From: a virus | Length of the DNA: 64,000 bases | IMG/VR virus record: IMGVR_UViG_3300025010_000002 | Location: 62,001-126,000 of that record | Strand: one strand, 5' to 3' | Part shown: positions 1-26,044 of the stretch, one piece after another | Layout of the letters: each line of letters begins with the position of its first letter | How positions within the stretch are numbered: position 1 is the stretch's first letter | Notes under the pieces: generated by a model | Told to the model about the DNA's origin: nothing | Seen by the model: only the letters and a program-made list of their open reading frames with translations | Databases searched by the model: none | Position numbers and translations under genes: made by a program

Positions 1-316
1 TGCGTAGAATGGTTACATCCCAGTCAACATCAATCTTATCCTGTGCCTCCATGTTACCTGCTAGATCCTTGTCATCTGCAGAGAAGCATCTGTGCTTGAG
101 GCCAGGAAAGTACTTGATATCCCTAACCCAGGATGGAGCTGAGCTCTTAGTGGCTATGACAAAGAGATGCTTGTTAGGCATAGGGCATTCCTCGTATGAA
201 GCAAGGCATGCAATGGTCTTACCTGACCCTGTTGGATCGGCAATGATCATCTTCTTCTGCTTAAGAAGCCTCTCCTTTGAGCTTACCTGGATTGGAGTTA
301 GGGTTATTCCTTTCAT
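1..316 (-). CDS. SF2 (DEAD/SNF2-type) helicase, N-terminal part
   Basis: The gene runs off the left edge; about 105 N-terminal residues are visible. They begin with a Q-motif-like LTPIQ and then a Walker A loop (ADPTGSGKT) around residues 27-35, followed by a stretch (HLFVIATKSS, motif Ia-like) expected in superfamily 2 helicases or translocases. DNA or RNA unwinding in replication, repair or transcription is the usual role. The ATG at 316 overlaps the stop of the HslV-like gene as ATGA, so the two are probably translationally coupled. The subfamily cannot be decided without the C-terminal motifs. Confidence 0.75.
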   Translation of the reverse strand, partial: MKGITLTPIQVSSKERLLKQKKMIIADPTGSGKTIACLASYEECPMPNKHLFVIATKSSAPSWVRDIKYFPGLKHRCFSADDKDLAGNMEAQDKIDVDWDVTILR

Positions 317-810
317 AACTTGATGGTGTACTCTTTGACAGGCAACTCACAGTACACAGATAGTTCACAAGCTACCTCTACCGCCTTGCTTACACTGCTG
401 CCCATATGTAGGGCTGCTAGAGCAAAGTCACGACCAGCTCCAATAGCTGAGTGTCCTGCAATTTCGTACACAAAAAACCCCTGAATATGAAACAGTTTTT
501 TCTGGTATACAATAAGGTAGTCATTTACTATCTTTGGATCACCAATCTTATCATTCTTCCACTCAGCAAACTCAGCTAGAAAATTAATGTAGGAGCTTTC
601 ATCTGCGCGTTCAGGAGTGTGAGTTTTACAGAATACCTGCAGCAAAGCTGACTCTTCACAGATGCCTACGCTCCCAACGAACATATCATCAACCTGGAAT
701 AGCTTTGCAAATTTATCTGCTGACTTGCTTTGTGTTGATCCGTATACAATGATTGAGTCTGACGCAATTGATATCTTATCATCATAAATCTTGGCGGCTA
801 CAATGCTCAT
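313..810 (-). CDS. HslV/proteasome-like Ntn-hydrolase (peptidase subunit homologue)
   Basis: This 165-aa protein is close to the length of HslV. Like HslV it starts with a short beta-strand immediately after the initiator Met. Ser2 stands where mature HslV has its catalytic Thr, Asp18 matches the conserved Asp17 region, and Lys33 lies where the catalytic Lys is expected. The segment GAGRDFALAALHMG (about 124-137) and the following ACEL helix are typical of the family. If active it would be an N-terminal-nucleophile threonine/serine peptidase forming ring assemblies. No HslU-type ATPase is visible beside it. The alternative is an inactive structural relative. Confidence 0.75.
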   Translation of the reverse strand: MSIVAAKIYDDKISIASDSIIVYGSTQSKSADKFAKLFQVDDMFVGSVGICEESALLQVFCKTHTPERADESSYINFLAEFAEWKNDKIGDPKIVNDYLIVYQKKLFHIQGFFVYEIAGHSAIGAGRDFALAALHMGSSVSKAVEVACELSVYCELPVKEYTIKL

Positions 811-13117: not shown

Positions 13118-13603
13118 TTACTGACGGCCAGCCTTGACCGACTTGCGCACTTCAATGTCATGACCATTGAACACGGCAGGCAGCTCGCCCACCTCATCCA
13201 TCTCGTCGCCATTGACATAGATGCTGAAGCTGTCAACACCCTGTGCGGCAATGTCAGCGCGGAGACGGGGGAGAACTTCGTCCGTCGGAAGAACGGTGAT
13301 CTCACGGCCAAACAGCGTGTACGAGGTACGGTGGTCGGTGCCAGCCAGATCACCAACGCTCAGCTGCGCCCCAGCCTTGACCGACTTGCGCACTTCAATC
13401 TGATGACCATTGAAGATGGCAGGGAGGCTCCCGACTTCATCCACTTCTTCGCCGTTCAGCATGATGCTAAAGCTATCAATACCCTGCGCAGCGATGTCAG
13501 CGCGGAGACGGGGGAGAACTTCGTCTTCCGCTGCAACCGTAACATTGCGGCCAAACAGGGTGTACGACGTGGTGTTGGTGTTGCTCAGTTCGCTCATGTT
13601 CAT
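13118..13603 (-). CDS. tandem ubiquitin-like (beta-grasp-type) protein, copy 1
   Basis: The 161-aa product holds two copies of a ~67-residue unit (about 12-78 and 92-159). Each starts TSYTLFGR, carries a helix DEVLPRLRADIAAQG, then DSFSI.(L/V)NG and LPA(I/V)FNGH.IEVRKSVKAG. The strand-strand-helix-strand-strand order and the Gly end fit a ubiquitin-like beta-grasp fold. The second copy ends KAG followed by only Arg-Gln, like a ubiquitin precursor tail removable by a JAMM peptidase, which is encoded nearby. Codon use is G+C-rich, suggesting high expression. AAGGAGATCCAC precedes the start. The alternative is an unrelated duplicated phage domain. Confidence 0.6.
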   Translation of the reverse strand: MNMSELSNTNTTSYTLFGRNVTVAAEDEVLPRLRADIAAQGIDSFSIMLNGEEVDEVGSLPAIFNGHQIEVRKSVKAGAQLSVGDLAGTDHRTSYTLFGREITVLPTDEVLPRLRADIAAQGVDSFSIYVNGDEMDEVGELPAVFNGHDIEVRKSVKAGRQ

Positions 13604-13711
13604 GTGGATCTCCTTGGTAGTTGGGGAATACCAGCCCATTAGTTTGGCACATATCTACGTACCATTTTCCTTAGCTCTACTTACAATGATACTACAACTC
13701 AGCAACTTTTT

Positions 13712-13933
13712 CTACCCCTTGTTCAAAATAATTCCCTGAACCTTCAGTCCATAGAACTCGTCGTTCAGCATGGAGCTGATGCGGTCCAGGCGGTGGGCGG
13801 CAGTCTTGTGAGAGATCTTATAGTACGGGTTGTTCAGTGCGGTGGCAAGGGCAGCAATCTTATTCTTTACCTTGGTCACCTTATGTTTGCTAACAATGGT
13901 ACTCTTACGACCAACAATGGTTTCTGCTTTCAT
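13712..13933 (-). CDS. small basic protein, 73 aa
   Basis: Strongly basic N-terminal half (KAETIVGRKSTIVSKHKVTK) then a helical part with HKTAAHRLDRISSML. Could bind nucleic acid or the acidic partners of the cassette. GGAGAGTGTT precedes the ATG. No family recognised. Confidence 0.55.
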   Translation of the reverse strand: MKAETIVGRKSTIVSKHKVTKVKNKIAALATALNNPYYKISHKTAAHRLDRISSMLNDEFYGLKVQGIILNKG

Positions 13934-13947
13934 AACACTCTCCAGTC

Positions 13948-14826
13948 CTAGAAGTTAAACACATTACCTACACGTACAAATTCCTTGAGACCACTACCTG
14001 CAGCAAGGGCATCCCATGCACATTCGTTGCCAAAGAAGTCCTTGTCTGAGTTTACAAAGTCCTGGTAATGCGATAGATACATCTTCTGCTTGATACTGTC
14101 TGGGAGGATGTGTGAGTTTGCCGAAGTCCACCCCGCAAGCTGGGCAAAGTTGGCATGCACACCTGATGAGAACACCATACTCTTAGTAGCAGTGTTCACA
14201 CCAAGGCACTCACAGTCTTGAAAGATAGTTGTGGCTCTCTGATAGAACACCTCCACCTGCTTTGGTGAGCAGTGCTGGCTGTCAGCGGTGAAATAGATGT
14301 GCTGATCATCCTTGCTCATGAAGAGACCAAAGGAAGGACTGATGATGGTGCCTGTCATAATGTGGATCTGCTGGATAAGCTGACAGTGCCACCCCTGCCA
14401 CATGAATGTTTCATTACCTCTCACAGGATGAGGCTCAAAGAAGGTCTCAAGGTTGGCATCAAAGCCCTCCATACTCTCGAGACCACCCCGTAAACTCTTG
14501 TCCCATAAGTCCGCAAGTACACGTTCGTTGGCAATGAGACACGGCGCAACACTGCTACTTGCACGATTCCTCCAATTGGTTGGCCGCTTCATCCAGTCAT
14601 AGCGGAGGAATGCCATCTGTTCCAACCCACCTATGTGATCACCATGCAGATGGGAGATATAGATGTCATTGATATCATTGACAGAGATACCAGCCCTGTG
14701 CAATGCAGCAGGAGCCTGATACCCATAGTCAATGAGCATAGTCCTGCCGCACTCCTCCAGCATGAAACATTGGTTGAAGTTGACATTACTAAATGCGTTG
14801 CCACAGCCCAACACTGTTACTTTCAT
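13948..14826 (-). CDS. metallo-beta-lactamase-fold hydrolase (RNase Z-like)
   Basis: The 292-aa protein begins MKVTVLGCGNAFS and has the metal motif HLHGDH (His59, His61, Asp63, His64). Later come a conserved-looking Asp in FTADSQH and a further His-rich end (LSHYQDF), as in ribonuclease Z-like and phosphodiesterase MBL proteins. It should be a two-zinc hydrolase. From memory, MBL-fold proteins occur next to E1/JAB/ubiquitin-like genes in some bacterial operons. Here the gene follows the JAMM gene by three bases, with AGGAGTG before its ATG. Confidence 0.8.
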   Translation of the reverse strand: MKVTVLGCGNAFSNVNFNQCFMLEECGRTMLIDYGYQAPAALHRAGISVNDINDIYISHLHGDHIGGLEQMAFLRYDWMKRPTNWRNRASSSVAPCLIANERVLADLWDKSLRGGLESMEGFDANLETFFEPHPVRGNETFMWQGWHCQLIQQIHIMTGTIISPSFGLFMSKDDQHIYFTADSQHCSPKQVEVFYQRATTIFQDCECLGVNTATKSMVFSSGVHANFAQLAGWTSANSHILPDSIKQKMYLSHYQDFVNSDKDFFGNECAWDALAAGSGLKEFVRVGNVFNF

Positions 14827-14829
14827 AGA

Positions 14830-16029
14830 TTACACTCCTGTGTGCTCATTAGGTGATTCAATATTTATGTCCTTGTACACTGACGTGAACAGATCAACTG
14901 CATCAATGACATTAACGCACGTCCCGCAGTAGTGGCCACCAAGGCATTCCTTGCCCTCACCGCACATAGGCAATGAACCTTCAAGGTTGTAAGCCTTGTA
15001 ACCCTTGCTGTCAAAGATACTCTTGACCCAATCTGCGAGCTTGTTATTGTGCTTGCAGTCAAAGCAGTCATTCACACAACCTACGTTACAATTTGCGCAG
15101 AAGTGGATATCTGTTTCGGGGGGTGCACTTTCAGCAACCGTCCCGTCCATCGGGTATTCGTCGTCAAAGTTTTCGACAACCGTAACATGCGGGTTAGCAT
15201 TATCTCGAAAGTTCCCCCGCGTGACGCGGCTCCCCGTGAAAACGTCGTTGTCATACCCGTCCCAGTCACGCTGCCCATGATACCCAGCAAGAAGACTGCC
15301 TTGTGAAGGCGGGGTATACGGTGGGTAGTTGTATGTAGGCTTGACAATGCGCTCAATGTAGTCCGTGACCACATCCTTGACCTGTGCATACTCAATGTTG
15401 ACCTTGATATTCTTGTAGAGGAACTTGCCACAAGGAGTCATGGCCTTGGCAGTGGCAACATAGTTGATCTCACTGCCCTTCTTGGACAGGACAATGCTAT
15501 AGTTATAGAGGTTGCGGCACTGCAGATCATCCTGGCCACTATGGAACGACCCCATATCATTGTGGCTATGCACCACACCATTGAAACCAGACCCGTCACC
15601 ATCCACGATTTCCACCATGGTCTTGGTAACTTTCTGCTTCGGGAAGTCCCACTCGGTAATAACACCAGCATCATTGACGTTATAGATCATCAACCATTCG
15701 TCAGTGGGCAAACGATTCATAAGGTCAGCCCAGATTGCCCACAGCTCAGGAGGAACCACAAGGTCTTTCGGTGTGGTTGCCTCACTGCAGGCGGTGATAC
15801 AGGCACTCTTGATACCCAGCGCATCCTTGATACTCTGTTTAGCAGGGTCAGCAACGGTAGTGGCAGCAGGCGGCATAAGAGAACTCTCCCTTCCAGTAGT
15901 GTTAGCAGGCTGTCTGAATCCAACAACACGGGGTGCCGGAGCAGGCGCACCTGCAGCTTTAATGTATTTCATGTTAGTCTCCACTCTCCTTTTTTCTAAA
16001 GCCTTCTTCCAGGCTTTTTTCCTTCCCAT
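14830..16029 (-). CDS. JAMM/JAB (MPN+) metalloprotease, deubiquitinase-like
   Basis: The 399-aa protein has a basic and Pro/Ala-rich N-terminus of about 85 residues, then an MPN domain. Glu111 (DEWLMIY) and the signature HSHNDMGSFHSGQD supply His154, His156, Ser164 and Asp167, a complete JAMM zinc site (HxH-x7-S-x2-D). A C-terminal Cys-rich part has nine Cys (311-325, 356-371), probably one or two zinc knuckles. Role: releasing or maturing ubiquitin-like tags. The start at 16029 has AAGGGG upstream; an internal ATG at 15972 is a second option. Directly follows the E1 gene. Confidence 0.85.
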   Translation of the reverse strand: MGRKKAWKKALEKRRVETNMKYIKAAGAPAPAPRVVGFRQPANTTGRESSLMPPAATTVADPAKQSIKDALGIKSACITACSEATTPKDLVVPPELWAIWADLMNRLPTDEWLMIYNVNDAGVITEWDFPKQKVTKTMVEIVDGDGSGFNGVVHSHNDMGSFHSGQDDLQCRNLYNYSIVLSKKGSEINYVATAKAMTPCGKFLYKNIKVNIEYAQVKDVVTDYIERIVKPTYNYPPYTPPSQGSLLAGYHGQRDWDGYDNDVFTGSRVTRGNFRDNANPHVTVVENFDDEYPMDGTVAESAPPETDIHFCANCNVGCVNDCFDCKHNNKLADWVKSIFDSKGYKAYNLEGSLPMCGEGKECLGGHYCGTCVNVIDAVDLFTSVYKDINIESPNEHTGV

Positions 16030-16040
16030 AAGTGCACCCC

Positions 16041-17144
16041 TTATTGGACGTTAACACCTGCAGCTTGGAATTTCGGCTTGAGCAGCTCCATTGCCTGCTT
16101 GAGAGCATCCCACTTTTGCTGCTGGAAAATAGTGGTGGGCAAAGTATTGACCATCTCCTGACAGTCAAAGGAGGCAAATGCATGGATGATGGTAGTATTG
16201 GTTACGGAGTGTTCCGGCTCAGCATCAAGAAGACGAGCTCGGATTTCTTCGTCATACCTGCCACGAGCTAAACAGTCATGTATGTCATCATCCCAATTGC
16301 CTTCACGTATCAGATCAGAAACACTATCAGGTGAGTAGTACTCGCAGTTATCACAGTCGCCACGGTTACAGTTGTCACAATCACCACGATGGCAATCATC
16401 ACAATGACCGAGCTTCTTGTTCGCCATTACTTTGGCTTCGGCTTGCACCATGCAAGTATCCGTGAGACAATCCTTGACAGCCTCCATAACGAAGTCGGTC
16501 ACCATGGAACTGTTGCCCATGGCGAGCATGCGCATATCCTCAGTGAAGTTGACCTCACCAGCCATAACACTGAACACCGCAAGGGATGCAGCGGTGGCGG
16601 CAGGGATTGACCACGACGGAGTAATGGTGTAACCGTTGGTCTCCTCATCAGAGAACGTGAACGGGAATGCACGGCTGACATTCAGAGTAATACCGTCGTA
16701 CCCGCACCGCTGATACTGGATGTTATTCTGGCGGCACCACTTGTTAAGCAGCTGCTGTGACTTGACATTATCCGTGCAACAGAAGATAACGCTGGCCTCA
16801 TCAAGGATTGCCACGTTCTCATCAGTGATCTTTTCCTGGTAGCAGGAAACGCTGCAGTCAGGGCGAATCTTACGGATGAAATTGCGCAGCACCTCGGTCT
16901 TGAAACTCCCCACCGCACCTGATTCAAAGGGGAGGCGGTTCAGATTACTGGTCTCCAGCTTATCCATGTCGTACAATTCAAGGCTCGGGCACCCACTCAT
17001 AGCCAGGAAGATTGCCACCCAGCTGCCAGTGCCACCGCAACCAACCACCACAGCCCTTGTCGGGACATTCAGAGGACGACCCAGAGCCGATTCAAGAGCA
17101 GTTTGACGTTCGTACAAAGCTCCTTCAACACGAGTAGTTTCCAT
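16041..17144 (-). CDS. E1/ThiF/MoeB-like ubiquitin-activating enzyme homologue
   Basis: The 367-aa protein begins METTRVEGALYERQ. It has a Rossmann ATP site VVVGCGGTGSW (32-42), an acidic pair in LYDMD (59-61), SNLNR (66-70), a Lys in GSFKTE (82) and CCTDN (122-126), all hallmarks of adenylating E1 enzymes. Cys candidates for thioester transfer lie at 147 and later. An unusual insertion with three CxxC units, two repeating RGDCDNC (248-267), probably binds metal. It should adenylate the C-terminal Gly of the phage ubiquitin-like proteins. Neighbours are the E2-like candidate and the JAMM protease. Confidence 0.85.
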   Translation of the reverse strand: METTRVEGALYERQTALESALGRPLNVPTRAVVVGCGGTGSWVAIFLAMSGCPSLELYDMDKLETSNLNRLPFESGAVGSFKTEVLRNFIRKIRPDCSVSCYQEKITDENVAILDEASVIFCCTDNVKSQQLLNKWCRQNNIQYQRCGYDGITLNVSRAFPFTFSDEETNGYTITPSWSIPAATAASLAVFSVMAGEVNFTEDMRMLAMGNSSMVTDFVMEAVKDCLTDTCMVQAEAKVMANKKLGHCDDCHRGDCDNCNRGDCDNCEYYSPDSVSDLIREGNWDDDIHDCLARGRYDEEIRARLLDAEPEHSVTNTTIIHAFASFDCQEMVNTLPTTIFQQQKWDALKQAMELLKPKFQAAGVNVQ

Positions 17145-17148
17145 TATA

Positions 17149-17904
17149 CTATGTAACCTCCCCTTCTTTCTTGGTTTCTTTCTTATCAACCTTACCGAAG
17201 AACTCCTCAACACCAGTGGTCAGCTTGATGATACCCTTCTCTGCCAGATCATTGATGTTGCGCATCCCACCATGAGTTCCAGGGCCAATGATCTTCTCAA
17301 AGGAAGGGAGCTTAAGCAGGTTATAGCTGCCACCAAGAGAAGACATATTGATTGTCTTGAGCATGCTACGAACTTTCTTGCTGCGCTCCACTATGTCAGC
17401 ATAGCTCTTGGGAGCAGGACGAATATAGGAGCTGAGTTCACCCACGCACAGAAGCTTTTCTGAGGAGTCACCATCCCTGTCACGGACACCAAAGTTGTTG
17501 TGGAAGTGCGAGCCGACATAAGGCCACTGGGTGAAGTAGACATACTCACCGTTCGGTTCATACACTGCACCAATGTACCCATTGAATACTGCAGGCTCAA
17601 CCATCTTCCAACGCTTGCCATAGCTGTCCAGGATATACTCAATGCGAAGTTCACCTGTGTAGCCAACAACGCACATGTAGTTACCCTTGTAGAAACGCAC
17701 AGGGATCTCAGGACTGTTAATAACTGAGGGCATATTAAACTTTGACTTGCGCAGCTCCCGCATAGCCGCATTGATCTGCTCCAGCTTGCCTTTAAATAAA
17801 CGAGCTAATGAGGGAATGGGTACAGGCTTGTCCATTTCCTTGAATACTTCGACTGTCATGGTCTGCGGAGAACCATCAGCGGTGTCTTCCTCTTCGTCAG
17901 CCAT
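17149..17904 (-). CDS. candidate E2-like conjugating protein
   Basis: The 251-aa protein starts at ATG 17904 behind GGAGG and overlaps the upstream stop. No sure family match. A central part reads as beta strands followed by His133, His135 and then LLCVGEL with Cys153, recalling the H-x-H ... Cys arrangement of divergent bacterial E2-like (UBC-fold, PRTRC-B-like) proteins. The position between an MIB-domain protein and the E1 supports this. The C-terminus has a glycine-containing helical part and Lys-rich tail. The E2 call is inference; it may be another adaptor. Confidence 0.4.
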   Translation of the reverse strand: MADEEEDTADGSPQTMTVEVFKEMDKPVPIPSLARLFKGKLEQINAAMRELRKSKFNMPSVINSPEIPVRFYKGNYMCVVGYTGELRIEYILDSYGKRWKMVEPAVFNGYIGAVYEPNGEYVYFTQWPYVGSHFHNNFGVRDRDGDSSEKLLCVGELSSYIRPAPKSYADIVERSKKVRSMLKTINMSSLGGSYNLLKLPSFEKIIGPGTHGGMRNINDLAEKGIIKLTTGVEEFFGKVDKKETKKEGEVT

Positions 17905-18979
17905 TGCCCTGACCTCCAACTCCATTTATTTCCCACACATGCTCAAACCTGAACTGACCCTGCAGCTGAGAATCCTTGTTAACACCATGAATAGCGGCAG
18001 ATCTCTTGTCACGGAGCATAACCATGAATGTGTTGCACAGACCTGCAGACTTTGCCCCATTCATAAGACGAACTAGCACTTCCCTGACACGCTTGTTCCC
18101 AAGGTCATACAACGGGACACCAAACGCTATGAGCATGACAGACTTGCCCTCACGGTAACGCTTGAATCCCTTGAGAGCTTTCTCCACCAGCTTTTTATGC
18201 TCTTTCTCAGCAGCTTCATTGGTTGAAATCACCTTGGAGTTGATAGCATCAGCAGCTTCCTTGCGCTTGGCTGCTATCTTTGCTGCATCGTGCTTGGTAA
18301 CACAGCAGATATGCTTCTTAGCATCATTGTAGGCGTAGTAATAGCTGGCAGTATTGCCCCACATCACCTCAATGTTATAGATCGTTCCATCCTGTGAGGT
18401 GAAATTACGACCTACACCAATCACCCTGCCCTTGCCAGGCTTGCCATTGGTGAAATCCTGATTGCCATAGCTCCAGTCCCTGCCACGGCGAACCATCATA
18501 CCAACCTTAAGCTCGGCAGGGTAGTCATCATCGGGAAGCTCAGGAGTTTCCTCCTTCTTTTCGACAGGCTTCGGTTCCTCCACAACAACGGCAGGAGCTG
18601 GGTCGTCATCAGCAAACGGATCAGGATCTTCCACTACTGCAGGTGCCGGAGTGACCAGCACAAAGTCCTGACGTTCACCACCATACAAGTAACTGTCAGT
18701 TCTGTCATTACTATCCCAACGGATTCTGTACCAACGTGAACCAGGGTAGTCTCTGTTGTCTCTTCCTAACTCGATAATCTCACCGGCCTGCTCAACACCA
18801 TGGTAATGATCCTGTGTACCCCATTGCCAGGTAAAACCACGACGAACACGGTCACCAACAGCAGGTACCCACGGTGTTGCAGCCGGTTCCTGCTGTTGAG
18901 CAGGGGCACTGTCAGCCACCGGAGGAGCCACTACTGCTGCCGGTACAGGTGCAGCTGCTGTCAAATCACTTAGGCGCAT
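17897..18979 (-). CDS. protein with two MIB/HERC2 domains, possible E3-like adaptor
   Basis: Start MRLSDLTAAAP behind GGGAGG. The 360-aa chain has two copies of the MIB/HERC2 pattern. One runs at about 40-110 (VGDRVRRG, WQWGTQD, RIRWD, YLYGG); the other at about 157-228 (VGMMVRRG, WSYGNQD, IEVMWG). They are joined by an acidic Pro/Ala/Val linker. A helical C-terminal domain follows (EKALKGFKRYREGK onward). In eukaryotes this domain recognises substrates in the Mind-bomb and HERC2 ubiquitin ligases. Next to E1, E2-like and JAMM genes it suggests a substrate-targeting factor. It has no RING or HECT signature. Confidence 0.7.
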   Translation of the reverse strand: MRLSDLTAAAPVPAAVVAPPVADSAPAQQQEPAATPWVPAVGDRVRRGFTWQWGTQDHYHGVEQAGEIIELGRDNRDYPGSRWYRIRWDSNDRTDSYLYGGERQDFVLVTPAPAVVEDPDPFADDDPAPAVVVEEPKPVEKKEETPELPDDDYPAELKVGMMVRRGRDWSYGNQDFTNGKPGKGRVIGVGRNFTSQDGTIYNIEVMWGNTASYYYAYNDAKKHICCVTKHDAAKIAAKRKEAADAINSKVISTNEAAEKEHKKLVEKALKGFKRYREGKSVMLIAFGVPLYDLGNKRVREVLVRLMNGAKSAGLCNTFMVMLRDKRSAAIHGVNKDSQLQGQFRFEHVWEINGVGGQGNG

Positions 18980-19199
18980 CTTCCACCTCCCCACCATAGA
19001 TACTCATTATCAAGCTCATTGAAACCTCAGCCCATCGTACAAAGTCAGGGAGGTAAATGTAACCACCCTTTATATCCTTGACCATATCCATACCCTCTTC
19101 GATATGATCGGCTATCTCATCAATTTCGTCATCATCAGGTGGGGCAGACTCAGCCGACACCAGCGGACTGGGCTTCCCGTTCAGTTGTGCCATATTCAT
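18966..19199 (-). CDS. acidic small protein, 77 aa
   Basis: Acidic first half (PPDDDEIDEIADHIEEG) and an amphipathic end. AGGAGGT lies 11 bases upstream of the ATG; the 3' end overlaps the MIB gene start. Probably a cassette member. No family recognised. Confidence 0.55.
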   Translation of the reverse strand: MNMAQLNGKPSPLVSAESAPPDDDEIDEIADHIEEGMDMVKDIKGGYIYLPDFVRWAEVSMSLIMSIYGGEVEDAPK

Positions 19200-19478: not shown

Positions 19479-19703
19479 CTATTCCTTTGTCCACCATCCA
19501 GCTCTGTTCTCTTCAACCAAACCCACGGTAACTGTCTGACCTGTAACATCACATTGACCTGTCTGTAGATTCAATGTTGCACTCGGCTTGCCACATGGGC
19601 ACATATCCAAACCAGAGTGATTATAAGACCACCTGCTGTACTTGTCAACAGCGCACTCCTTAGTTGAGTGACTACACACTAACAACCTAGGCTTGCTGTC
19701 CAC
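19479..19703 (-). CDS. Cys-rich protein with GTG start, 74 aa
   Basis: Start at GTG 19703 (read MDSKPRLLVCSHS), eight bases after GGAGG, matching how the neighbouring paralogues begin. Cys pairs in VCSHSTKEC and CPCG suggest a zinc site. Lacks the C-terminal DNMV motif of its neighbours. Confidence 0.5.
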   Translation of the reverse strand: MDSKPRLLVCSHSTKECAVDKYSRWSYNHSGLDMCPCGKPSATLNLQTGQCDVTGQTVTVGLVEENRAGWWTKE

Positions 19704-19929
19704 TTGAATTTCCCTCCGCATTATTAAACACATGCTCATTGCCGAAGAAAGGAACACACAGCAACTGCTTAATGCCGTGACAATCCATGGGAATCTTGTT
19801 GCAATGAATCTTGTCATCTTTGTGCGGCTTGGCATGGGGACAGGATGCCCCCTTGTCCAGTGATGCACAGCCCTGCGGACTTATCCTTCCCTGACAAATG
19901 TACAGTTGTTCTTCAGCACCACTCACCAT
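19687..19929 (-). CDS. Cys-rich small protein, divergent DNMV family, 80 aa
   Basis: Begins MVSGAEEQLYICQGR; Cys/His spacing (CPHAKPH, CNKIP, LLCVPFFGNEHVF) parallels the family in which the end reads ADNMVIPK. GGAGACCAAA precedes the ATG; 17-nt overlap with both flanking genes. Confidence 0.55.
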   Translation of the reverse strand: MVSGAEEQLYICQGRISPQGCASLDKGASCPHAKPHKDDKIHCNKIPMDCHGIKQLLCVPFFGNEHVFNNAEGNSSGQQA

Positions 19930-20179
19930 TTTGGTCTCCTTTGTTTTCAGGATCGTGTAACAACTTTGGAATTACCATGTTATCAGCATAGGGCAGACAC
20001 TTGAAGAAAGGTGTTTTTCCACCAAGCTTTATGCCCCATGTACACATACCTGGTGTGTCACAATATGCAGTGCATACATGTGGAACTCTATGCCCACACC
20101 TTGCATTATGCGTTGGAGAGTGGACACAATGGCCCTGAGCTCTCCCGACACATACCATAAGCTTCTGCTCAGCATTCAA
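19913..20179 (-). CDS. Cys-rich DNMV-family protein, TTG start, 88 aa
   Basis: Starts with TTG overlapping the upstream TGA as TTGA, behind AAGGAGGTGGG. Pattern VCVGRAQGHC, GHRVPHVCTAYC, KCLPYADNMVIPK. The C-terminal ADNMVIPK is the family hallmark. Probably zinc-binding; role unknown. Confidence 0.6.
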   Translation of the reverse strand: MNAEQKLMVCVGRAQGHCVHSPTHNARCGHRVPHVCTAYCDTPGMCTWGIKLGGKTPFFKCLPYADNMVIPKLLHDPENKGDQNGEWC

Positions 20180-20412
20180 GGTTTGCCCACCTCCTTAGGC
20201 AGCACCATGTTATCAGCGCATGGTACACACACAGTTTTTACTATTGGCTCACTTACCCAACCACATATCTCCACATATGTGCACTCAGCACCCTGAAGCT
20301 TGTGAGGACCTCTGTGTACACATCGTATAGTATCTCCAAGTGTGGCCACTCCTTCTCTGCAATGCCCAGACAACCATCCCGTGCACACATACCATTTAGT
20401 ATCATCGCTCAA
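20176..20412 (-). CDS. Cys-rich DNMV-family protein, TTG start, 78 aa
   Basis: TTG start overlaps the upstream stop as TTGA, the same arrangement as the next gene. Pattern VCTGWLSGHC, CVHRGPH, VCVPCADNMVLPK. Tandem paralogue of the gene at 19913. Confidence 0.6.
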   Translation of the reverse strand: MSDDTKWYVCTGWLSGHCREGVATLGDTIRCVHRGPHKLQGAECTYVEICGWVSEPIVKTVCVPCADNMVLPKEVGKP

Positions 20413-20639
20413 CTATGACCACCCCCGTCCTTTGGAACTATGAAGTTATGTGGTGCATCTACCAAGTAACGATCTCGTATAACAGATCGGTCACATAAAA
20501 GACTGTACCTCTTCCTGCCGTCAGGCTCTGTTATAGCTTGGGAAATGAATCCAGGATCTATCATTACTCTCCCACCACACTCTAAACATTTCTGGTCTAT
20601 ACCAAGCTGACCACACACTAAGTACTTTCCAATGACCAT
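20409..20639 (-). CDS. Cys-rich DNMV-family protein, divergent, 76 aa
   Basis: MVIGKYLVCGQLG with CLECGG and a C-terminal PHNFIVPKD in place of ADNMVIPK. Probable zinc-binding paralogue. Confidence 0.55.
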   Translation of the reverse strand: MVIGKYLVCGQLGIDQKCLECGGRVMIDPGFISQAITEPDGRKRYSLLCDRSVIRDRYLVDAPHNFIVPKDGGGHS

Positions 20640-20644
20640 AATAC

Positions 20645-20794
20645 CTAGCTCCTGAGTTCAACTTCAATGTCATCAAGGAGTTTCTGGACACTCTTGCAAT
20701 ACTCTTTCTTGATCTTCTGCTGCTTGTATAGTACCATGAGATCTTCAAGGAATAACCTCAGACGAATAAGCAGATCACGTGTTTGTGGTGTCAT
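20645..20794 (-). CDS. helical mini-protein, 49 aa
   Basis: ATG at 20794 forms ATGA with the upstream stop; frame ends TAG. Amphipathic basic helices (MTPQTRDLLIRLRLFLEDL and KQQKIKKEYCKSVQKLLDD). A larger overlapping frame in this stretch lacks these signals. Function unknown. Confidence 0.55.
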   Translation of the reverse strand: MTPQTRDLLIRLRLFLEDLMVLYKQQKIKKEYCKSVQKLLDDIEVELRS

Positions 20795-21054
20795 TTTAGA
20801 ACCCCTTTCTCCTTAAGCCACTCACCTCTCATACCACCTTTTGGTATAACCATGTTATCATAGAACTGTATCATTGGAACATATATTGGTTTAATAGAGC
20901 TATTGGTAAACCTCCAACAGGTGCGTTTGTCTCCAGGCTTAATAGACTTCCCAGCAAACCATATTGCAGGACGGGGTTGTGCGTATGAGCAGTTAGCACT
21001 TCTACAGTACTCACTTACATAGGCACAGATGTACGTTTCAGTACCGTGATACAT
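20791..21054 (-). CDS. Cys-rich DNMV-family protein, 87 aa
   Basis: ICAYVSEYCRSANCSYAQ at the N-terminus and YVPMIQFYDNMVIPKGG near the C-terminus, then an extra charged tail. Close paralogue of the gene at 21038 (same ICAYVSEYC and Q-[FY]-YDNM). Confidence 0.6.
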   Translation of the reverse strand: MYHGTETYICAYVSEYCRSANCSYAQPRPAIWFAGKSIKPGDKRTCWRFTNSSIKPIYVPMIQFYDNMVIPKGGMRGEWLKEKGVLK

Positions 21055-21310
21055 CTATGTCCACCCCCTTGCTCTTGACCCAGTTAAAATAATGGTCACC
21101 CTCAGGTATAGCCATGTTGTCATAGTACTGGATAAGTGGAACTCTGAAATTCTTAATGTCACAACCACGTGTTTCACCAGGTTTAACACTGGTGCCCATG
21201 AACCAGTCTTCAGGCTTCTCTCTTGCGTATACACATACACCAGTGCTTTTACAATATTCACTTACATAGGCACAGATGAACCATTTAGTTTCTGATTCAG
21301 GATTAGGCAT
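21038..21310 (-). CDS. Cys-rich DNMV-family protein, 90 aa
   Basis: Shares ICAYVSEYC, a WF.G.S.KPG.+.C middle and VPLIQYYDNMAIPEG with the gene at 20791, so a recent tandem duplication is likely. First gene after the tRNA region. Confidence 0.6.
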   Translation of the reverse strand: MPNPESETKWFICAYVSEYCKSTGVCVYAREKPEDWFMGTSVKPGETRGCDIKNFRVPLIQYYDNMAIPEGDHYFNWVKSKGVDIDVSRY

Positions 21311-22091: not shown

Positions 22092-22595
22092 CTAGCCCAG
22101 GCAGATACCAGCCTTGACCGACTTGCGCACTTCAATCTCATGACCATTGAACACCGCCGGAAGGTCACCAACCTCGTCCACTTCCTCGCCATTCAGAATG
22201 ATCGAGAACGAATCAACACCCTGCGAGGCAATGTCAGCCTTCAAGCGCGGCAGCACTTCGTCCGTCGGAAGAACGGTGATCTCACGGCCAAACAGCGTGT
22301 ACGAAGTGCGGCTCGCAGCACCCGACAGATCACCCATGCTCATCTCCGCACCAGCCTTGACCGACTTGCGCACTTCGATGCTGTGGCCATTGAAGATAGC
22401 GGGCATATCCCCAACCTCATCAACTTCCTCGCCGTTCAGAACGATGCTGAAGCTGTCAACACCCGCAGCGGCAATGTCAGCCTTCAGGCGCGGCAGGACC
22501 TCATCCGACGGCTGCACCGTAACGTTGCGACCAAACAGCACATAGGTCGTCGTGTTCGTCGTGCCAGCCAGGTCCTGCATGTTCATGTTCGCCAT
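22092..22595 (-). CDS. tandem ubiquitin-like (beta-grasp-type) protein, copy 2
   Basis: This 167-aa protein is a close paralogue of the gene at 13118: two units (about 16-82 and 97-163) with TSYTLFGR or TTYVLFGR, DEVLPRLKADIA, DSFSI.LNGEEVDEVGD and EVRKSVKAG. The tail after the last Gly is ICLG instead of RQ. The linker MSMGDLSG mirrors the N-terminal MNMQDLAG, showing that a whole gene unit was duplicated in frame. DNA of the second units is nearly identical between the copies over parts (22264-22310 against 13280-13326). AGGAGAGATTTAC precedes the ATG. G+C-rich codons suggest high expression. Confidence 0.6.
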   Translation of the reverse strand: MANMNMQDLAGTTNTTTYVLFGRNVTVQPSDEVLPRLKADIAAAGVDSFSIVLNGEEVDEVGDMPAIFNGHSIEVRKSVKAGAEMSMGDLSGAASRTSYTLFGREITVLPTDEVLPRLKADIASQGVDSFSIILNGEEVDEVGDLPAVFNGHEIEVRKSVKAGICLG

Positions 22596-22725: not shown

Positions 22726-22944
22726 CTAGGCTTTACCTGTGTGACTAGGTTTTACTTCAACTTTGTGTATACCAAATTCTCTGTTTAAAACTGAAGTACA
22801 CTCAACTTCTACATCATCAACAAAGATATTAAATCCACGTCTATAGTCAATGGATGCTAAGTCACTAAGAATTCTCTCCCGTATTATTTCAGTTCTACCA
22901 ACTGGGATAGTTTTACCGAGTATATAATAACTTGTCTTATCCAT
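22726..22944 (-). CDS. single-unit divergent ubiquitin-like protein, 72 aa
   Basis: Aligns by eye over its full length to one unit of the tandem proteins: TSYYILGKTIPV, a helix with RILSDLASI, FNIFVDDVEVE, and an FGIHKVEVKPSHTG end. The final residues are TGKA, again a Gly near the C-terminus. It is the minimal, non-duplicated member of the family and lies 131 bases upstream of copy 2. Confidence 0.55.
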   Translation of the reverse strand: MDKTSYYILGKTIPVGRTEIIRERILSDLASIDYRRGFNIFVDDVEVECTSVLNREFGIHKVEVKPSHTGKA

Positions 22945-22950
22945 ATAGCA

Positions 22951-23034
22951 CTAACCAGGAAAATTGGGGCAGCACAGGCAGACAAGAACACTGCCTTGAT
23001 TTGCCCCGCATTGAGTGCAATCAAACGTTTCCAT
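22951..23034 (-). CDS. zinc-knuckle micro-protein, 27 aa
   Basis: METFDCTQCGANQGS followed by VCLCCPNFPG: two CxxC pairs in 27 residues. AGGAGAGACCAC precedes the ATG, identical to the site before the next upstream gene. Too short for many gene finders but well supported by signals. Confidence 0.5.
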   Translation of the reverse strand: METFDCTQCGANQGSVLVCLCCPNFPG

Positions 23035-23419: not shown

Positions 23420-24205
23420 TTAGAACAGGCGCAGGTAACAGCAAGGGTTATTGCGCTTGAAGTGAGTTGCTCTCCATCTCTTGATAATAATGTGATCCTT
23501 GTACTTCTCCGATCCATTCCAGATATGACTCTTCAGGATCTTATCCACCTCAGCGTAGCTCGATGCACCAAGCTGGTCAAGGTCGGAGTTGGTGATACCT
23601 AGTCCATCAGTAGGCACAGCTTTGATACATGCTTGCAGGGCACGTTTCTGTGCACGTGTCCCCTCATTGTCCACGATCCATTGGGCGAGCTGGTACACCT
23701 CAGTCTTCCAATAGTGCTGAATAGGTGCTATGTCGCCAACGTCCCCATGCAGAGTCCAGAAGCCAAGGAGATACTCAGTCAGGTTATCCGTGGACAGCAC
23801 CGCCCCCTGGCATGAAAAGGCAGTGTTGTACAAGTGAATCATACGCACACGAGCCTTAACGTTACCTTTACGAATTTTCTCGTTGGGTATATTCAACAAG
23901 GAAAGTTGGTGACTGCTAATTAACTCTACCTCGGAGTCAATCTCTGCTTCGAACCACCTATGAGAGTACGTCCTACAAATGTCCCTGGCCCTCTTAAGCT
24001 CATCAGGTTTGTTAGACTTGGAAGGGAGTGAAACAAGAACCAAAGGAATACCAAGTTCCTTGTTGCAGACATGGTAAGCAAGGGCTGCAACGAGTGCACT
24101 GTCCACACCACCACTTACACCGAGAACCAGAGACTTAAGCTGTGCCCCCTCAGTGTATCTCTTGAGCCATGTACGTATCTTCTTCACCTCAGATTTGCAG
24201 TTCAC
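23420..24205 (-). CDS. nadE: NAD synthetase, ammonia-type
   Basis: The 261-aa length matches short, ammonia-dependent NadE. The PP-loop SGGVDSAL sits at 31-38. Downstream are the family segments STDNLTEYLLGFWTLHGD (substrate and ATP contacts), IAPIQHYWKTEV, and IKAVPTDGLGITNSD. It amidates nicotinic acid adenine dinucleotide to NAD. GTG start overlaps the pncB stop as GTGA, so translation is coupled. Last enzyme of the Preiss-Handler route. Confidence 0.9.
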   Translation of the reverse strand: MNCKSEVKKIRTWLKRYTEGAQLKSLVLGVSGGVDSALVAALAYHVCNKELGIPLVLVSLPSKSNKPDELKRARDICRTYSHRWFEAEIDSEVELISSHQLSLLNIPNEKIRKGNVKARVRMIHLYNTAFSCQGAVLSTDNLTEYLLGFWTLHGDVGDIAPIQHYWKTEVYQLAQWIVDNEGTRAQKRALQACIKAVPTDGLGITNSDLDQLGASSYAEVDKILKSHIWNGSEKYKDHIIIKRWRATHFKRNNPCCYLRLF

Positions 24206-25374
24206 ACAATCCTCCCGAACACTTGATTGAGATAGGCTAAGTAGCCATCATCCTCACACATCTGCTTGCCCTCGCTGTCACTCAGTTTGGCCACAGGTTG
24301 ATACTGGCATTCCGTCATTTTTATAACACATTGCAGTGCAGGAACTCCCACATCATTGGTAAGGTTTGTACCTATACCGAACGATGTCTTGATGTCATTA
24401 CCAAACTTATTGTACAGATCAATAGCCTTGGGGATTGTCAGGCAATCCGAGAACACTGCACTCTTGGTCTTCGGGTCAATACCCATGTCCTTGTACCAAC
24501 GGATCAGCTGCTCACACCAAGCATATGGATCACCACTGTCATGTCTGCATCCATCGTACAACTTGGCGAAGTACAGATCAAAGTCCTTGAGGAACGCCTT
24601 GAACCCAACAACGTCTGACAGGGCAATACCAAGATCACCACGGTACTCATCAACCCATTTCTGTAGCATGAACTTCTGGGAATCAATGAGCCGAGGACCA
24701 AGTGCCTGACCAGCTTGGAGCCATTCATGTGCCATGGTTCCAATGGGTTTCACCCTGTGCTTCATTGCAAGGTACACATTGGATGTGCCAATGAACTTCT
24801 CAGGACATGTGCTGGCAAGGTGACCAACCACATAGTCCTGCCAGTACTTGCTGAACCTGCGCCGTGTACCAAAGTCAGCGAACCTGAACCCTGTGGGAGC
24901 AAGGCATATATCACTGACTTTCTTGAGCAGTCGTACCTGACCCTCACCCCAGAGGATTGACTCATTCTGGGTGTGGTTGTAGTACACCTCATTGACAATG
25001 GAGAGGATGAGGGTCTCAAAGTAAATGGTCAGAAACCAGGGTCCCTCAATGGTTATACCGAGGTCCCCGTTGTCCAATGCTTTAACTGTGATGTACTTGG
25101 CATTGGGCTTGTACATCTCGAGGAAGTCAATGTAATCAGGCTTGAGGAACCTTATGGTTCGGAGGTACTCAATCTCCTGCCAATTGAACTTGAGCTCACA
25201 CATCTGAATGATCTCGCTCTTGATCTCCTCAGCGAATCTGCCAAGCTCTGCCCCTGCTGTTCGGCATTTAAACTTGTACTTGACATGTGCCCCTGGGAAC
25301 TGGTGAAACACAGCTTGTCCCATGCTTAATTTGTAACTGTCTAAATCTAGCAGACTTGTGATTATTCCTCCCAT
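24202..25374 (-). CDS. pncB: nicotinate phosphoribosyltransferase
   Basis: The 390-aa protein matches bacterial PncB in length and order of motifs: SLLDLDSYKLSMGQAVF at the start, GPW, DFGTRRRFS, GTSNVYLA, PIGTMAHEW, YDGCRHDSGDP, VFSD, FGIGTNLTND and PVAKLSDSEGK. It joins nicotinate to PRPP to give nicotinate mononucleotide. The resemblance is to PncB rather than nicotinamide phosphoribosyltransferase. Overlaps pncA by 13 nt; no strong ribosome binding site, so coupling is likely. Confidence 0.92.
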   Translation of the reverse strand: MGGIITSLLDLDSYKLSMGQAVFHQFPGAHVKYKFKCRTAGAELGRFAEEIKSEIIQMCELKFNWQEIEYLRTIRFLKPDYIDFLEMYKPNAKYITVKALDNGDLGITIEGPWFLTIYFETLILSIVNEVYYNHTQNESILWGEGQVRLLKKVSDICLAPTGFRFADFGTRRRFSKYWQDYVVGHLASTCPEKFIGTSNVYLAMKHRVKPIGTMAHEWLQAGQALGPRLIDSQKFMLQKWVDEYRGDLGIALSDVVGFKAFLKDFDLYFAKLYDGCRHDSGDPYAWCEQLIRWYKDMGIDPKTKSAVFSDCLTIPKAIDLYNKFGNDIKTSFGIGTNLTNDVGVPALQCVIKMTECQYQPVAKLSDSEGKQMCEDDGYLAYLNQVFGRIV

Positions 25375-26027
25375 AGAACACGTCCGTCAAGGATAGGAGC
25401 AAGCCCTGTGATCTTGTCAATGAATCTGACGTTCTTGCCAGCAAAGCGTTTCTTGGTGTCCTCCACTGCTGTGTCACCAATACCCCTGCAGGCAGCGAGG
25501 TTGATGACCACACGGAAGCCAGCGGACACAAGCTGCTCAGAGGTGGTAGCCACGCAGTAATTAGTGGCAAGGCCCCCAACGATCACCAGCTTAATCCCCT
25601 TGCTGAACAGGAACTCAATGACCCCTGTGCTCAGCTTGTTGAACAGATCATGGAAGCATGCGCCGTACGGGTGGAGATTAGGCTCACAGCCCTTCCATAC
25701 AAAAAAGTCGTACTCCGTAACATCAGGAAGACCATCCAGCAACTCACAGCCAGTGCTGCCTGTTACACAATGGGACGGCCAGTGAATGTCCACATTGGGA
25801 AGACCAACAGGGGAAAACGGGGGGTGATCACCATCAGCGTTCCACATAGCCCAAGCAGGGTGGGCATCCTTGGAGCCAACGCGATAAGCAGCGAACAATG
25901 CCTGCTTGTTAAGTTCATTGACGATCTCAAGAGCCCCAGGGACAGGGAGCTCAGCAGGGCAGAGTTCACTGAACCCCTTCTGAGCATCCACATCAAAGCT
26001 GGCAATGTATTTCTTGTCAATAGCCAT
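25362..26027 (-). CDS. pncA: nicotinamidase (isochorismatase-family hydrolase)
   Basis: The chosen start (MAIDKKYIAS) follows AAGGTGG; a GTG four codons upstream is possible. The 221-aa chain shows the catalytic triad region: Asp14 in VDAQKGF, Lys112 in WKGCEP, Cys158 in LATNYCV. Metal ligands KDAHP (54-56) and HWPSHCVTGSTG are also present. It deamidates nicotinamide to nicotinate, feeding PncB. First gene of the pncA-pncB-nadE run. Confidence 0.9.
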   Translation of the reverse strand: MAIDKKYIASFDVDAQKGFSELCPAELPVPGALEIVNELNKQALFAAYRVGSKDAHPAWAMWNADGDHPPFSPVGLPNVDIHWPSHCVTGSTGCELLDGLPDVTEYDFFVWKGCEPNLHPYGACFHDLFNKLSTGVIEFLFSKGIKLVIVGGLATNYCVATTSEQLVSAGFRVVINLAACRGIGDTAVEDTKKRFAGKNVRFIDKITGLAPILDGRVLWEE

Positions 26028-26044
26028 ATCTTGTGCCACCTTTC

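Follow-up and report, generated by a model that had tools for sequence, protein, structure and literature searches.

We analysed a gene cassette for ubiquitin-like (Ubl) protein conjugation in IMG/VR virus record IMGVR_UViG_3300025010_000002. The DNA studied, called the window, comprises bases 62001-126000 (64,000 nucleotides) of this 139,571-base record of an uncultivated tailed phage. Coordinates are window positions, and L-numbers (e.g., L047, L071) are our labels for related loci. Judging from the sequence, the cassette probably encodes a functional phage system for Ubl conjugation that represents a new subtype. The observations behind this reading are gene content, gene order, active-site residues, a beta-grasp model, Gly-ended modifiers and the conservation of the whole set, and from them we infer every catalytic step and the conjugates. 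A first-pass annotation had already proposed a phage Ubl-modification cassette of five genes in one minus-strand run. All five are indeed open reading frames (ORFs) in that place and on one strand, and our analysis supports the E1 adenylating enzyme, the E2-like protein, the JAMM protease and the duplicated modifiers among them.

Modifiers and enzymes of the cassette

In transcription order, the minus-strand run consists of genes for a MIB_HERC2 protein, the E2 candidate, the E1, the JAMM, a metallo-beta-lactamase (MBL)-fold hydrolase, a protein of 73 amino acids (aa) and a tandem Ubl protein. These genes overlap or almost abut, which resembles an operon; the one exception is a gap of 72 bases ahead of the tandem Ubl gene. 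Two further Ubl genes lie upstream on the same strand, 8.5-9.8 kb away. The conjugation genes are as follows.

13118..13639, minus strand: tandem Ubl protein A, two beta-grasp units of ~67 aa, end ..VRKSVKAG-RQ (ORF, repeat alignment, AlphaFold/Foldseek)
14830..16029, minus strand: JAMM/JAB protease, motif HSHNDMGSFHSGQDD, Cys-rich C-terminal tail (Prok-JAB, alignment to relatives)
16041..17144, minus strand: E1/ThiF-like adenylating enzyme, 367 aa, Cys-rich C-terminal extension (ThiF, PDB, tree)
17149..17925, minus strand: E2-like protein, candidate catalytic C160 (LLCVG) and H140 (GSHFH) (alignment, phmmer, profile-profile comparison)
22092..22595, minus strand: tandem Ubl protein B, end ..VRKSVKAG-ICLG (alignment)
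22726..22944, minus strand: single diverged Ubl, 72 aa, end ..HTG-KA (alignment)

The three modifiers named in the first-pass annotation thus all exist, although two of them (22092-22595 and 22726-22944) lie outside the run to which they had been assigned. Together they give the phage five Ubl domains. Four units of ~67 aa are nearly identical (76-85% identity to the reference unit) and are homologous to the Ubls of related phages. The ratio of non-synonymous to synonymous substitution rates (dN/dS) among these four was 0.09-0.25, with 0.25 between both units of tandem Ubl A. Such low values indicate that the protein sequence is under selection.

An AlphaFold model of the second unit of tandem Ubl A, built with seven family sequences, had a mean predicted local distance difference test (pLDDT) score of 84 and showed strands and helix in beta-grasp order. 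Almost all of its best 50 PDB matches in Foldseek were ThiS, MoaD, SUMO or ubiquitin, the first being ThiS. The TM-scores of the listed matches were at most 0.59 and the E-values were weak (best, 0.075), which is expected for a length of only 68 residues. The beta-grasp fold suggested earlier for the 67-residue unit was therefore recovered by the model.

The C-termini are the strongest sequence evidence that these proteins are activated modifiers. Behind a conserved Gly, the modifiers of this phage carry the tails RQ, ICLG and KA. In most relatives, the Ubl profile picks up a homolog within the operon, and these homologs end in [A/P]G plus a tail of 0-4 residues (EAG, VAG, KAG, KAGM, PGM, PGVE, PGAE, VAGA, VAGR, VAGSK, VAGNVNP, EAGRANR), so that the overall Gly motif is [A/P/T]G. 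This is what one would predict for precursors whose terminal Gly is freed by a peptidase, in this case the JAMM. The exception is the second Ubl of L071 (L071:4950-5354), which runs on into a C-terminal extension and lacks the terminal Gly. L071 and L072 are the two metagenome-assembled genome (MAG) contigs closest to the cassette of this phage.

The JAMM motif HSHNDMGSFHSGQDD is an exact HxH-x7-S-x2-D, as had been read at first, and the conserved upstream Glu (EWL) is also present. Alignment to the JAMMs of relatives showed that the active-site residues Glu111, H154xH156, S164 and D167 are all kept. The protein scored just under the Pfam cut-off for Prok-JAB (1.9e-4), and the JAB of one relative scored above it.

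The E1, whose likely start is M24 of the longest ORF, matched ThiF (PF00899) above the Pfam cut-off (E = 1.9e-30). Its PDB matches were MoeB, ThiF, NEDD8-E1, BubCD and Cap2, and its nearest cellular relatives are ThiF/MoeB/TcdA. The ATP-site features GxGGxG, DxD, NxxR, K82 and D125 are conserved across 20 family E1s. The Cys-rich C-terminal extensions of E1 and JAMM are common to the closest relatives, L071 and L072.

The E2 candidate alone had no database match. With phmmer, it matched the gene at the same position in L072 (5e-5), and H140, C160 and SLG were invariant in an alignment of the candidate with L071 and L072. A profile of these three sequences matched the E2-position proteins of related phages whose operons follow sliding-clamp genes (clamp-linked phages; profile-profile E 5.7e-5), and the match spans both the His motif (HFH/HYH) and the Cys (LLCVG/DCWG). 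With hhalign, only family profiles produced matches, and single sequences gave nothing. In L051, which has the same E1 clade, the protein at the same operon place contains RHPNVNDDGMVCLG and matched Pfam UQ_con below the cut-off (E = 0.0038). Two operons (L060 and L069) carry two tandem E2 paralogs (329 and 248 aa), each with HYH..DCWG.

Taken together, these components suggest the following route. The JAMM would trim the RQ, ICLG and KA tails that follow the conserved Gly in the Ubl precursors; it may cleave between the tandem units as well. The exposed Gly would be adenylated by E1, after which the E2-like protein would receive the Ubl on its Cys160 and hand it on to lysines in the target proteins. 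Stripping the Ubl from its targets could also be done by the JAMM.

Several observations weigh against this route. The Ubls end in AG, not GG. The only Cys conserved in the 20 E1s is that of the CTD motif, so that a canonical E1 thioester is unsupported; transfer directly from the adenylate to E2, or through a non-conserved E1 Cys, may be supposed instead. The AlphaFold model of the E2 candidate, built from three sequences, was poor (pLDDT 44); it consists of a helix, then four strands, a loop holding the Cys, and helices. Given this score, we discarded its Foldseek matches as evidence (the UEV of TSG101 stood at ranks 10 and 42). Finally, no clamp was found beside the cassette of this phage, the phrog_223 lookup being silent on controls too.

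Related operons and known systems

We searched IMG/VR for the JAMM motif and obtained 30 stretches, in which an E1 usually adjoins where the sequence suffices. A scan with the E1 profile returned 22 loci, most of them ordered Ubl-E2-E1-JAMM. The order clamp loader-clamp-Ubl-E2-E1-JAMM was found in 18 of these loci, as well as in a MAG contig duplicating one of them (~13 distinct). Directly before the operon, PHROGs assigned genes to the clamp loader (7e-54), to the small subunit of the clamp loader (3e-15) and to the DNA polymerase processivity factor (4e-8). E1 identity among ten representatives of the clamp-linked loci was 46-80%, which means that this order has survived real divergence; likewise, the recurrence of Ubl-E2-E1-JAMM in many diverged phages indicates more than a chance association. 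By these sequence comparisons, the cassette belongs to a phage operon family that recurs and often lies in the replication module, and the earlier view of it as an unusual oddity has to be given up.

Among bacterial and archaeal genomes, scanning found only five MAG contigs, and one of these is the same as a viral contig. When a single JAMM, E2 or Ubl protein was the query against phages, plasmids and IMG/VR, the result was nothing or false matches. L002 was rejected as a relative because its match, on NKWCRQNN, was false. No close relative of this phage was found in the phage collection searched; its terminase shares ~30% identity with terminases from cultured Vibrio and Stenotrophomonas phages. 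A sister contig, G001, does not carry the JAMM, but the position of its terminase implies that it does not span the cassette region, so that this absence carries no information.

A tree of 36 E1s separated three phage groups: PRTRC-like, crAss-like, and a third that joins this phage and L071/L072 to the clamp-linked phages (support 100/99). Within the third group, this phage stands with L071 and L072 (99/94). The tree program gave a long-branch warning, so the deep joins are unsure.

Compared with the clamp-linked operons (L047-L069), the cassette has homologous Ubl, E2, E1 and JAMM proteins, the same E1 clade, the same E2-E1-JAMM order and the same modifiers with Gly plus a short tail. However, those operons have a minimal E1 of ~195 aa and one Ubl, and follow clamp-loader and clamp genes, whereas this phage has Cys-rich E1 and JAMM extensions, five Ubl domains, and added MBL and MIB_HERC2 genes.

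The PRTRC system (Iyer type 6d; Prok_Ub, Prok-E2_D, JAB, ThiF) also has separate Ubl, E2, JAB and E1 genes and a single-domain Ubl with a C-terminal Gly. However, the E1 of this phage scored 26.8 bits against a PRTRC_ThiF cut-off of 144.75 and belongs to a different clade, its E2 and Ubl did not match Prok-E2_D, PRTRC_B or Prok_Ub, and its gene order is E2-E1-JAMM, not E2-JAMM-E1. PRTRC-like Ubl/E2_D/JAB/ThiF cassettes do occur in IMG/VR phage contigs (L012, L015, L017, L020, L035), with Ubls that end in GTKG or GAKG and are sometimes tandem. This group was confirmed by PRTRC_A (6.5e-23), PRTRC_ThiF (5e-25) and Prok-E2_D (above cut-off).

In crAss001 (gp78-gp76), a phage JAB and E1 lie beside an E2-like protein (HSH...CxG) in the replication region, but the E1 clade (the crAss-like group of the tree), the order (E2-JAB-E1) and the Ubl candidate are different. 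At L040/L041 (crAss001 gp79-gp75, cr106_1), the JAB-E1 pair adjoins an E2-like HSH...CTG protein and a possible Ubl; the crAss001 annotation calls the pair 'metalloprotease' and 'thiamine biosynthesis protein'.

Bil/Bub, type II CBASS (Cap2/Cap3) and 6A-MBL share the enzymatic logic, and the E1 adenylation domain locally matches CBASS E1-E2 and 6A-MBL models. However, those operons serve bacterial defence, and many of them contain E1-E2 or E2-E1-JAB fusions; the E1 of this phage scored far under the cut-offs of these families. For type II CBASS, the PADLOC E1-E2 models matched the adenylation domain only, and the cassette genes include no fusion and no CD-NTase. For 6A-MBL, the genes here are separate, the E1 scored 39.7 bits against a cut-off of 320, and no 6A MBL model was among the matches. 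The tail genes TAPI-TAPK of lambda and T1 also pair a phage Ubl with a JAB peptidase, but these are tail-assembly genes without E1 or E2 (PMC1779556). A literature search that mostly lay outside subscription journals and preprints yielded no paper on phage E1-E2-JAMM-Ubl operons, but only tail TAPI-JAB. By the features tested, the cassette is not a member of PRTRC, 6A-MBL, CBASS or tail TAPI. The kinship to PRTRC, Bil and type II CBASS proposed in the first-pass annotation holds for the enzymatic logic, and not for membership of PRTRC or CBASS.

Possible functions and alternative explanations

What the modifiers would be attached to can be suggested from gene neighbourhood. Because the operons of relatives usually follow clamp-loader and sliding-clamp genes, the targets might be proteins of replication or host takeover that act early in infection, which we propose tentatively. 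Eukaryotes modify PCNA with ubiquitin and SUMO. It is conceivable, though unlikely, that a widespread phage family uses its own Ubl conjugation to modify the replication machinery, for example the sliding clamp, with an expanded version in this phage that has five modifier domains and, at another place in the genome, the HslV/proteasome-fold peptidase described below. The local neighbours, an Apyc1-like MBL and NAD-salvage genes, point to counter-defence as a fitting role too. Tagging might then disable immune or takeover proteins of the host, and the MBL, the NAD synthase, the nicotinate phosphoribosyltransferase (NAPRTase) and the isochorismatase-fold hydrolase would form one counter-defence island with it. 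We regard this as possible but rather doubtful: in relatives, the cassette lies in a core replication module and lacks the MBL, a setting that agrees better with conserved housekeeping. It is also imaginable that the phage keeps the system as a weapon against its competitors. Bil and Bub systems, which have the same activities, act against phages, BubCD is among the PDB matches of the E1, and the double Ubl resembles ISG15-like modifiers; the phage could tag virion proteins of rivals in a Bil-like superinfection exclusion. However, such a role seems very unlikely, since the cassette of relatives lies among replication genes and not in an accessory lysogeny region, and no lysogeny gene was noticed, although no systematic search for them was made.

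Conjugation itself may also be questioned. The Ubl could be a ThiS/MoaD-type sulfur carrier that is activated by E1 and trimmed or released by a Mec+-like JAMM for the thiolation of tRNA or metabolites. The best cellular relatives of the E1, the first Foldseek match of the Ubl and the lack of a conserved catalytic Cys in E1 would all agree with this, and a ThiS/MoaD-like protein, an E1 and a JAB co-occur in sulfur operons (PMC1779556). Nevertheless, we consider it improbable. Most relatives have a fourth gene with conserved His/Cys, whose L051 copy matches the ubiquitin-conjugating profile; we saw neither a rhodanese nor a sulfur gene next to the cassette, and relatives are syntenic with replication genes. 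A further question is whether the MBL itself functions in the Ubl system, as the first-pass annotation had assumed in counting it as a cassette enzyme. The MBL gene starts 3 bases behind the JAMM gene, and in 6A operons an E2-E1-JAB fusion is paired with an MBL (PMC1779556). However, the best match of this MBL is Apyc1 and not 6A-MBL, the components here are unfused, and the MBL was absent from all loci of relatives searched (the Apyc1 family had no match in 15 relatives' records). A role in conjugation is thus hardly probable, and we rejected it as the first choice. The MBL matched Pfam Anti-Pycsar_Apyc1 (E = 2.4e-18, 67 bits against a cut-off of 50) and PDB Apyc1 7u2r (E 8e-21). Its HLHGDHIGGLE aligns to HIHGDHVGGLE of Apyc1, which includes HxHxDH and a Glu equivalent to E74, one of the Apyc1 catalytic residues (PMC9117128); an equivalent of Y112 was not located. 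Most likely, it is a separate anti-Pycsar-type phosphodiesterase on a shared transcript.

Bacterial Ubl conjugation is known mainly as an anti-phage defence. If a working conjugation system is indeed present here, phages would be users of ubiquitin-style signalling, which would reverse the defence-only picture. The operons would also offer compact, reconstitutable E1-E2-JAMM-Ubl sets with a minimal E1 for studying the origin of ubiquitin transfer, and the question of what phages tag becomes directly testable.

Other genes of the run and its neighbourhood

The remaining genes of the minus-strand run are listed below.

13712..13933, minus strand: 73-aa basic protein between MBL and Ubl (ORF; no family match)
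13948..14826, minus strand: MBL-fold hydrolase, Apyc1/RNase Z-like, probably accessory (Pfam, PDB)
17897..18997, minus strand: protein with two MIB_HERC2 domains (PF06701 6.8e-14, two stretches)

The 73-aa protein and the MIB_HERC2 protein did not appear in the first-pass annotation. MIB_HERC2 domains are found in eukaryotic E3 ligases. The gene for the phage protein overlaps the E2 gene by 29 bases, and none was found in any locus of relatives searched; that the protein serves as an adaptor is speculation.

An HslV/proteasome-fold peptidase with Ser at position 2 is encoded at 313-810 (minus strand). It matched the PHROG 'peptidase HslV family' (4e-20) and, in PDB, the beta-proteobacteria proteasome homologue (E 0.003). 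It was not found in the records of 15 relatives, many of which are fragments, and for this reason was set aside as a partner of the Ubl system.

The stretch that separates the two Ubl loci encodes a tandem family of about six paralogous proteins, which are small and rich in Cys and His (19687-21310, minus strand; e.g., 20176-20412 and 21038-21310). Three of them tested against PHROGs and two tested against Pfam had no match; they are possibly zinc-binding. A 27-aa ORF, METFDCTQCGANQGSVLVCLCCPNFPG (22951-23034, minus strand), has a Cys-knuckle pattern and stops 6 bases ahead of the single Ubl gene; the two look translationally coupled. The genes for NAD synthase, NAPRTase and the isochorismatase-fold hydrolase, a possible nicotinamidase, are consecutive at 23420-26039 (minus strand). 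They form an apparent phage NAD+ salvage cassette, which possibly counters NAD-depleting defence.

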